NCBI RefSeq assembly: GCF_003752505.1
Contig: NZ_RKHO01000001.1
Location: 744,001 to 808,000 of the forward strand
DNA: 64,000 nucleotides
Reading direction: 5' to 3'
DNA from: Nocardioides aurantiacus
GTDB taxonomy: Bacteria; Actinomycetota; Actinomycetes; Propionibacteriales; Nocardioidaceae
Part shown: positions 58,220 to 62,763 of the stretch, piece after piece
How the letters are laid out: each line of letters starts with the position of its first letter
Numbering within the stretch: the stretch's first letter is position 1
The notes under the pieces: model-generated
Told to the model about the DNA's origin: nothing
What the model saw: the letters and a program-made list of their open reading frames with translations, nothing else
The model's database searches: none
Translations under genes and position numbers: made by a program

Positions 58220-58345
58220 CGGCCCGCGTAAGGGCCCGCAACACCAGTTGGTCCCCGCGGGGGAAGCCGGTCCGAAGCCGGCGCTGACCCGCAACCGTGG
58301 GCCGCCCCTCGGGCGGCGAGCCGGAACACCCGTCGGGGACGACGC
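58220..58345 (+). ncRNA. Cobalamin (B12) riboswitch
   Basis: The conserved core is easily read: CACCAGTTGGTCCCCGCGG, then GGGGAAGCCGGTCCGAAGCC, then GCGCTGACCCGCAACCGTG (the B12 box), an internal hairpin GCCGCCCCTCGGGCGGC, and GAGCCGGAACACC. Edges are approximate. The spacer to the first gene (about 75 nt) contains an anti-Shine-Dalgarno arm, so translational control is likely. It should shut off the downstream uptake operon when cobalamin is plentiful. A possible -10 element TAGCGT lies at 58209-58214. Confidence 0.9.
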
Positions 58346-58381
58346 CCCCTCGATGCTGCCGTGGAACGCAGCGGGTGCGGC

Positions 58382-58418
58382 TCCCTCCCGGGCCCCCCGC
58401 CAGCGCCGCCGGGAAGGA
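58382..58418 (+). promoter_or_regulatory. Shine-Dalgarno-sequestering hairpin of the riboswitch
   Basis: TCCCTCCCGG (58382-58391) can pair with CCGGGAAGGA (58409-58418), 9 of 10 positions, covering the ribosome binding site 3 nt before ATG 58422. A ligand-bound riboswitch would favour this closed form. Confidence 0.6.
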
Positions 58419-60315: not shown

Positions 60316-61894
60316 GGTCACCTTTCGCTACGACCCGGCGGCGCCACCGGTGCTGGCCGGGGTCGACCTGACCCTGGAGGAGGGCGAGCTGGTGCTGGTC
60401 GCCGGGCGCACCGGCGTCGGCAAGTCGACGCTGCTCGGGGTGCTCGACGGGCTGGTCCCGGCGTTCACGGGTGGACTGCTCTCGGGCGACGTGCTCCTCG
60501 ACGGGGCGAGCGTGCTCCACCTGCCGCCGCGCGACCGCGCCCACGTCGTGGGGTACGTCGGCCAGGACCCGACCGCCGGCTTCGTGACCGACACCGTCGA
60601 GGAGGAGCTGGCCTACGGCATGGAGCAGCTCGGCCTCGACCCGGCCACCATGCGCCGCCGCGTCGAGGAGACCCTCGACCTGCTCGGGATCGCCGAGCTC
60701 CGCGGTCGCGACCTGCGCGCCCTGTCGGGGGGCCAGCAGCAGCGGGTGGCGATCGGCTCGGTGCTGACGATGCACCCCCGGCTGCTGGTGCTCGACGAGC
60801 CGACCTCGGCGCTGGACCCGACGGCCGCCGAGGACGTGCTCGCCACCCTGACCCGTCTCGTGCACGACCTGGGCGTCACGGTGGTGGTGGCCGAGCACAG
60901 GCTCGAGCGCGTGGTGCCCTTCGTCGACCGGGTGGTCCTGGTCGAGGGCGACGGCCGGGTGCGCGCGGGCGACCCCGCGGAGATGCTCGAGCACTCCCCG
61001 GTGGCCCCGCCCATCGTCGAGCTCGGCCGGTGGGCGGGCTGGTCGCCGCTGCCGCTCAGCGTCCGCGACGCCCGGCGCCGCGCGTCCCGGCTCGCGCTCG
61101 TGCCCCGGGCGGCCGAGGCGCTCCCCCCGACCCGTCCGGCGCTGGTGGCGCGCGGAGTCTCGGTGCTCCACGGTCGGCGTACGACGCTCCTCGGGGTCGA
61201 CCTCACCGTCGGGCACGGTCAGGTGACCGCGCTGATGGGCCGCAACGGCTCGGGGAAGTCGACGCTGCTGTGGACGCTCCAGGGCTCCCGCGCCCGAGCC
61301 GCCGGCAGCGTGCTGGTCGGCGACACCGATCCCGCCACCCTGCCCGCCGCCGGGCGACGGCGGCTGGTCGGGCTGGTGCCGCAGACCGCCGCCGACCTGC
61401 TCTACCTCGAGACCGTGGAGGAGGAGTGCGCCGCCGCGGACGCCGAGGCCGAGCAGCCGCCCGGGACCGCCTCGCAGCTGCTCGAGCGGCTGGTGCCCGG
61501 CGTCGACCGGCGCGCCCACCCCCGGGACCTGTCCGAGGGCCAGCGCCTCGCCGTGGTGCTCGCGGTGGTGCTGACGGCCCGCCCCGAGGTGCTGCTGCTC
61601 GACGAGCCCACCCGTGGCCTGGACTACCCCGGGAAGCAGGCGCTCGCCGAGGTGCTGACCGGCCTCGCCGCCGCCGACCGGGCGGTGCTGGTGGCCACCC
61701 ACGACGTCGAGTTCGTGGCCCAGGTCGCCGACCAGGTGGTCGTGCTCGCCCAGGGCGAGGTGGTCTCGGCCGGGCCCACCGCCCGGGTCGTGGCCGAGTC
61801 GCCGGCCTTCGCGCCGCAGGTGCACAAGATCCTCGGCGGTGCCTTTCTCACGGTGGCCCAGGTCGTGGCGGCCTCGTCGGGGGAGGGCCGGTGA
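60299..61894 (+). CDS. ecfA: ECF transporter ATPase, two fused ABC domains
   Basis: A 531-residue protein joining both ATPases of an ECF module. First domain: Walker A GRTGVGKST (Lys42), signature LSGGQQQRV, Walker B LLVLDEPTSALD. Second domain: GRNGSGKST (Lys320), signature LSEGQRLAV, Walker B VLLLDEPTRGLD. GTG 60299 has AGGAGG 7 nt upstream inside ecfT. The fusion in a dedicated operon with T and S components marks a group I ECF transporter. Its stop overlaps the S-component start as GTGA. Confidence 0.95.
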   Translation: MLELREVTFRYDPAAPPVLAGVDLTLEEGELVLVAGRTGVGKSTLLGVLDGLVPAFTGGLLSGDVLLDGASVLHLPPRDRAHVVGYVGQDPTAGFVTDTVEEELAYGMEQLGLDPATMRRRVEETLDLLGIAELRGRDLRALSGGQQQRVAIGSVLTMHPRLLVLDEPTSALDPTAAEDVLATLTRLVHDLGVTVVVAEHRLERVVPFVDRVVLVEGDGRVRAGDPAEMLEHSPVAPPIVELGRWAGWSPLPLSVRDARRRASRLALVPRAAEALPPTRPALVARGVSVLHGRRTTLLGVDLTVGHGQVTALMGRNGSGKSTLLWTLQGSRARAAGSVLVGDTDPATLPAAGRRRLVGLVPQTAADLLYLETVEEECAAADAEAEQPPGTASQLLERLVPGVDRRAHPRDLSEGQRLAVVLAVVLTARPEVLLLDEPTRGLDYPGKQALAEVLTGLAAADRAVLVATHDVEFVAQVADQVVVLAQGEVVSAGPTARVVAESPAFAPQVHKILGGAFLTVAQVVAASSGEGR

Positions 61895-62763
61895 GCGCGC
61901 CGGTGCGCGACCCCGCGGCCGTCGGCCGTCCCGACCCGCCCGGGCTGCGGCTGCGGCCGCGCTCGGCGCTGGTGCTCGGCCTGGCGTCGGTGGCGGGTCT
62001 GGTGATGTTCTGCTGGCCGCTGCTGCTGCAGGTGCGTGCCGACGCCGACACCGTGCAGCCGCCGTTCGTCTTCATGCTGCTGCTGCCGGTGGTGATCGTG
62101 GTCTGCCTCGCGGAGTTCAGCGAGGGCGGCATGGACTCCAAGGTCCTGGCCGTGCTGGCGGTGCTGACCGCGGTCAACGCCGTGATGCGCGGGCTGTCGG
62201 CCGGGGTCGGCGGCATCGAGCTGGTGTTCTTCCTGCTGATCCTCGGCGGTCGCGTCTTCGGCGCCGGGTTCGGCTTCGTGCTCGGCTGCACCTCGCTGTT
62301 CGCCTCGGCCCTGCTCACCGGGGGCGTGGGGTCGTGGCTGCCGTTCCAGATGATGGCCTCGGCGTGGGTCGGGGCGGGGGCGGGGCTGCTGCCGCGCCGC
62401 GTCCGGGGACGCGGCGAGGTGGCGATGCTGGTGCTCTACGGCGTCGTCGCGGCGTACGCCTTCGGGCTGGCCATGAACCTCACGAGCTGGCCCTTCGCGC
62501 TCGGGATCTCGGTGCCGGGCCACGACGGCGGGCTCGCGTTCGTGCCCGGCGACCCCCTGCTCGAGAACCTCCGGCGCTTCGGCGTCTACACGCTGCTGAC
62601 CTCCACGGGGAGCTGGGACACCGGCCGGGCGGTGACGACCGGGGTCGCGCTGGTGGTACTGGGACCCGCGGTGCTGGCCACGCTGCGGCGCGCCGTGCGC
62701 CGCGCCACGGTGGTCCGCGTCGGGCCCGTGGACACGGCCGCCCCGGCTGGGCCCGGCCGCTAG
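61891..62763 (+). CDS. ECF transporter substrate-binding (S) component, predicted cobalamin-specific
   Basis: A 290-residue membrane protein with about six membrane segments. RGLSAGVGGIELVFFLLIL then GGRVFGAGFGFVLGCTSLFA and LPFQMMASAWVG are typical of actinobacterial ECF S components, with Ala/Gly-rich surfaces that contact EcfT. Specificity cannot be read from sequence; cobalamin is inferred from the riboswitch at the head of the operon, as for CbrT-type transporters. The last codon, TAG, is also the start of a TAGCCT hexamer for the next gene. Confidence 0.85.
   Translation: MSAPVRDPAAVGRPDPPGLRLRPRSALVLGLASVAGLVMFCWPLLLQVRADADTVQPPFVFMLLLPVVIVVCLAEFSEGGMDSKVLAVLAVLTAVNAVMRGLSAGVGGIELVFFLLILGGRVFGAGFGFVLGCTSLFASALLTGGVGSWLPFQMMASAWVGAGAGLLPRRVRGRGEVAMLVLYGVVAAYAFGLAMNLTSWPFALGISVPGHDGGLAFVPGDPLLENLRRFGVYTLLTSTGSWDTGRAVTTGVALVVLGPAVLATLRRAVRRATVVRVGPVDTAAPAGPGR

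Follow-up and report, generated by a model that had tools for sequence, protein, structure and literature searches.

The window analysed here is a stretch of 64,000 nucleotides from Nocardioides aurantiacus (contig NZ_RKHO01000001.1, positions 744,001 to 808,000), and it contains an operon in which a cobalamin-type leader is followed by four open genes, all on the + strand (58422-62763). The first gene (58422..59135) encodes P0001, an exported surface protein of 237 amino acids that, judging from its open reading frame, an alignment and the predicted fold, carries a transcobalamin-type beta-grasp (SLBB) domain. The other three encode the parts of a predicted energy-coupling factor (ECF) transporter: the transmembrane component EcfT of the CbiQ family (59143..60315, with an assumed GTG start), EcfA-EcfA', a single polypeptide with two ATP-binding cassette ATPase domains (60299..61894), and the S component, the substrate-specific membrane subunit (61891..62763). 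This gene order was found again in relatives. A first-pass annotation, made from the letters of the window alone, had listed the leader, the four linked genes and four cysteines in P0001, and all of them lie where it had placed them.

The leader was expected to match the cobalamin riboswitch family RF00174. The Rfam scan of the window gave no family at its gathering score; scanning of 58100-58450 alone gave an RF00174 match at 58261-58330 (28.2 bits, E 1.6e-5), that is, a match below the gathering cut-off of 31.5. The whole genome (4.06 Mb) contains five cobalamin matches, three of them above the cut-off, and the window leader is the weakest. To decide the assignment we used a covariance model, R1, built from leaders of relatives with the window excluded. 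Its source was 20 RF00174 gathering hits in the relatives' loci, five of which (off-strand, partial or surplus) were dropped, leaving 15 leaders from 13 loci; 14 of these are on the operon strand, and the remaining one, from L105, stands before an SLBB gene that lies by itself next to the operon. With 692,029 bases scanned, R1 matched the window leader at 58254-58336 (+ strand) with 74.1 bits and an E-value of 1.8e-12, E-values of this model being rough because of a short calibration. Through this match the leader shares the aptamer core common to those relatives' leaders that do pass the RF00174 cut-off. R1 had one more, weak match in the window, at 47578-47649 (21.4 bits, E 0.09), which was taken as chance. 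Within the full leader (about 58207-58421) the core is nearly identical to that of the closest relative, L006, on a Marmoricola contig, while the flanks diverge. These results support the assignment of the leader to the cobalamin riboswitch family, from which ligand binding and control of expression are predicted.

The RF00174 cut-off overlooks many G+C-rich leaders of these operons. In the 35 of 54 loci covered by the Rfam scan, taken as three sets, it accepted operon-strand leaders in 4 of 11, 5 of 12 and 5 of 12 loci, and R1 found a leader in 11 of 11, 11 of 12 and 11 of 12, respectively, 13 of the 35 loci having supplied sequences to R1. Some loci have further riboswitches. A second one stands between the SLBB gene and EcfT at L044:3892-3979 (+) and L049:10170-10262 (-), which may put the capture and transport genes under separate control. 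At L105:1932-2664 (+), a riboswitch is followed by the stand-alone SLBB gene, and the adjoining ECF operon, on the opposite strand, has a riboswitch of its own.

P0001 has two hydrophobic segments, residues 9-39 and 204-231. The C-terminal one (59031..59114) runs into RRRKH and, by hydropathy, is a probable single membrane anchor; the motif check found no LPXTG in P0001, and a GVDTG_CTERM match at this segment was weak (21.1 bits, cut-off 29). Exactly four cysteines are present, at residues 49, 72, 103 and 114, within the SLBB domain (58566..58901, approximate bounds from alignment A1 and from comparison of model residues 15-125 with transcobalamin-type beta domains). In the 42-row alignment three of the four cysteine columns are invariant and that of residue 72 is conserved in at least 90% of rows. 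Both the segments and the cysteine count agree with the earlier description of an exported, C-terminally anchored protein.

The same description had called P0001 DUF4430-like, which proved right for the fold and wrong for the sequence. No accepted family came out of the Pfam and NCBIfam scans of P0001; DUF4430 (PF14478) matched neither P0001 at E <= 1 nor anything in its own genome, and among 42 P0001 homologues it matched one (E 0.1). The predicted structure, however, is a beta-grasp fold whose nearest neighbours are in the transcobalamin clade, with the fold of a transcobalamin beta domain. In the structure comparison P0001 and human transcobalamin share 14% identity across aligned residues in the human rows; the human protein has two halves, whereas the window encodes the beta half only. 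Comparisons with PDB sequences yielded no usable match, and the sole row of one of them (2ab1, E 0.17) was judged chance. The NCBIfam family SCO2322_fam (NF040672) was matched at E <= 1 by 30 of the 42 aligned SLBB domains; P0001 itself scored 17.6 bits (cut-off 85). A pattern search of the genome contigs with P0001 found one close relative, L006. At L069:5194-6015 (-) and among the SCO2322-type matches, some SLBB proteins align with no more than the latter half of the domain profile, which points to truncation or strong divergence of the beta domain. At L110:9936-10637 (+), a gene that overlaps a Pfam DUF4430 match lies 3' of the toroid gene, immediately after an operon of this type.

Of the proposed ECF cassette, EcfT and the double ATPase were borne out by the profile scans. 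EcfT scored 41.2 bits with PF02361 (cut-off 25), and the double ATPase matched PF00005 in two stretches above the cut-off (173.7 bits) and TIGR04521, also in two stretches, with 280.2 bits (cut-off 330). The S component matched PF12822 with 27.5 bits, under the cut-off of 30.7 (E 3.8e-6); its operon position is conserved in relatives, and it is 38-95% identical to 15 operon homologues. At L115:3114-6311 (-), a single open frame of 1065 codons contains stretches resembling EcfT, the ATPase and the S component, with lower profile scores than elsewhere, and the SLBB match in that genome contains one internal stop; the locus either encodes an ECF transporter as a single chain or is decaying.

The first-pass annotation had brought together riboswitch, ECF cassette and an exported, anchored protein, all of which the analysis supports, with a predicted beta fold for the last; but it had overlooked a partner in the relatives, as well as the cobalamin synthesis genes of the host. 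At 42 of the 54 relatives' loci examined, an alpha/alpha toroid, the predicted fold of the other B12-carrier domain, is encoded together with the beta domain, in adjoining genes or as a fusion. The usual capture unit thus looks two-domain and the window form reduced. The window riboswitch directly precedes the SLBB gene, with no toroid gene between them. A single-query search found no toroid in the window genome; neither did toroid profile A8, which matched in three control genomes (G004, G033 and G012). Neither search gave support to a toroid moved elsewhere in the genome, and no complete transcobalamin-like carrier of toroid and beta domain was found there. The profile had no match in 9 of the 14 genomes tested, that of L006 among them. 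One of three toroids scanned matched SCO2321_fam (NF053823), with 27.9 bits (cut-off 300).

In a FastTree phylogeny of concatenated S-component and ATPase sequences (48 entries including the window, read for topology only, with seven loci omitted that had no usable copies of both proteins), the window and L006 stood beside L042, which has a toroid. Toroid loss in the window lineage is therefore probably secondary. The tree also fits a second, separate loss in four genomes of genus g21, which keeps the SLBB gene. L069 and L119 make up a third group without a toroid, and in their case a loss cannot be distinguished from never having had one. Other arrangements were seen as well: L108:4058-6337 (+) holds a riboswitch and a fused toroid-SLBB protein with an extra C-terminal part, and the fetched region gave no ECF profile match; L109, in the same genome, is a riboswitch-SLBB-ECF operon without a toroid. 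At L039 and L111 a riboswitch-toroid-SLBB unit occurs twice in tandem before one ECF cassette.

The riboswitch family, the recurring gene order, the predicted folds, the lack of a detectable toroid and the low ratio of nonsynonymous to synonymous substitution rates (dN/dS) of the SLBB domain are the computed basis of the reading that we favour with moderate confidence: a B12-repressible operon for corrinoid salvage, with capture by P0001 and import by the ECF transporter. Low cellular cobalamin would let the leader permit expression of the operon. P0001, exported and membrane-tethered through its C-terminal helix, would capture corrinoid outside the cell with its beta domain, as fold and context suggest, and pass it to the S component, which would import it together with EcfT and the double ATPase. 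At most of the relatives' loci examined, capture would be by a two-domain carrier of toroid and beta domain; the window lineage would have lost the toroid and use the beta domain alone. A one-domain receptor is reasonable, since PDB entry 5np4, by its title, is a structure of the human beta domain alone with cyanocobalamin.

Some observations sit uneasily with this reading. The leader has a possible expression platform in GGAAGGA (58412..58418), a Shine-Dalgarno-like sequence before the ATG at 58422, whose bases pair in the minimum-energy folds computed for 58330-58430, 58300-58450 and 58340-58440 but are largely single-stranded when the complete leader (58200-58430) is folded. Since the pairing varies with the stretch folded, translational control is only a possibility. 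Three loci, moreover, have no riboswitch, which is unexplained. The unstable fold and these three loci lowered our confidence slightly.

P0001 may also be vestigial after toroid loss, capturing nothing while the ECF module works alone, which we consider rather improbable. The genome has no detected toroid though its nearest tree neighbour, L042, has one, and P0001 evolves faster than the transporter: in a dN/dS estimate from one sequence pair (window versus L006) by a simple method, whole P0001 gave 0.43, against 0.149 for EcfT, 0.071 for the ATPase and 0.145 for the S component. The SLBB domain itself, however, is 95% identical to that of L006 and has a dN/dS of 0.22, similar to that of the dehydrogenase gene next to the operon (0.245); the high value for the whole protein arises because the signal peptide and the low-complexity tail change faster than the domain. 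P0001 also keeps all four cysteines, and genus g21, with its separate loss, likewise retains the SLBB gene.

The other chief rival concerns the substrate. The operon could import another B12-related compound (cobalt, a lower-ligand base or a precursor) under B12 control, with P0001 binding that compound or only assisting the S component. In the host, CobN, CobF, CobQ, CobBC and CobO, all above an NCBIfam cut-off, are encoded near other cobalamin riboswitches, so that cobalt or precursor supply could be B12-repressed too; CobS, a CobU-type protein and a chelatase subunit, also near other riboswitches, scored somewhat under their cut-offs. CbiC/CobH is present, and the remaining steps were recognised by eye in open frames, making a full cobalamin synthesis pathway likely. 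Nor does a profile of 16 operon S components give a significant match to any solved chain, which leaves homology to CbrT, the S component of a known B12 importer, without a match of this kind. A published proposal for similar operons is worded to cover 'B12 or its precursors' in the accessible part of its text (PMC1796856). On the other side, P0001 and the relatives' toroid have the predicted folds of both B12-carrier domains, fifteen operon-bearing genomes without CbiC/CobH keep the operon, which fits corrinoid better than cobalt uptake, and the Pfam scan listed no CbiM match for the S component. We thus regard another substrate as unlikely, if somewhat less so than a vestigial P0001.

Since the host carries cobalamin synthesis genes, as well as ten B12-binding-domain matches, the operon probably serves corrinoid salvage in a B12 producer. 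CbiC was found in 20 of the 36 genomes tested, and the toroid-less operon occurs both with and without it. A link between toroid loss and B12 synthesis was unsupported: of the six genomes with a toroid-less operon, the window genome, G060 and G057 have CbiC and G049, G038 and G021 do not. Three g21 genomes without CbiC have B12-binding-domain proteins, so the reduced form may be enough for likely auxotrophs.

That secreted transcobalamin-type SLBB proteins encoded in CbiO/CbiQ-like operons scavenge B12 or its precursors is an idea already published, as the accessible part of Burroughs et al. 2007 (PMC1796856) documents. The operons described there share with the window a CbiO-like ATPase, a CbiQ-like membrane protein and an SLBB protein with a signal peptide, several of these proteins also having a C-terminal anchor; second SLBB genes occur among them, as do fusions of toroid and SLBB domain with either part first. 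According to the same paper, such bacteria are usually without key steps of B12 synthesis. The window differs in having no toroid, and its host has B12 synthesis genes. Toroid and SLBB domain as separate adjoining genes are not described in that part, and no word starting with 'riboswitch' occurs in the text (PMC1796856). The same source proposes that SLBB domains of the Nqo1-like clade, found in ComEA and polysaccharide export proteins, contact sugars (PMC1796856), and several of our loci, too, contain second SLBB genes. Both points would favour a reading of P0001 as a lid or scaffold docking on the S component, or as a cell-wall sugar attachment, rather than as a capture protein; this reading nevertheless seems very improbable to us.

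ECF-CbrT of Lactobacillus delbrueckii is, like the predicted window system, an ECF-type B12 importer; the part of its description available calls the S component CbrT the substrate-binding protein and does not use the word 'lipoprotein' (PMC5997447). BtuG-type B12 lipoproteins of gut Bacteroides provide surface capture ahead of a transporter (PMC6143338, PMC10404256, PMC13398666, as far as these texts were accessible), but with another transporter type and in a Gram-negative cell; the likeness drawn here is one of role. A survey of riboswitch regulons lists 26 B12-transport orthologues and, in the part available, does not name a P0001-type protein (PMC3766115). A literature search on SCO2321 to SCO2325 surfaced, among the texts accessible, only one paper, on a skin-delivery peptide, and searches for actinobacterial ECF operons with a transcobalamin split in two showed no paper, most subscription journals being outside their coverage. 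The SEED database is said to name an extra lipoprotein for a predicted cobalamin ECF transporter.

In ECF importers vitamin capture is generally ascribed to the S component. We suggest, tentatively and with rather less confidence than we place in salvage itself, that the outer receptor of an ECF importer in actinobacteria is a true homologue of animal transcobalamin, encoded either by two genes or as a fusion, and that in the window lineage the beta half, tethered to the membrane, suffices by itself as a minimal B12 receptor serving the S component. If so, an outer receptor step would be added to this importer class, animal B12 carriers would have a bacterial counterpart with its two halves as separate genes, and a role would be suggested for the SCO2321 and SCO2322 families, whose NCBIfam names (NF053823, NF040672) state no function. 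The toroid-less lineages would make the question of which half captures testable.

The dehydrogenase gene mentioned above lies 3' of the operon (window 62773-63909, + strand) and is glucose/sorbosone dehydrogenase-like (PF07995, 262 bits). Its relatives adjoin the operon in several loci, frequently on the opposite strand.
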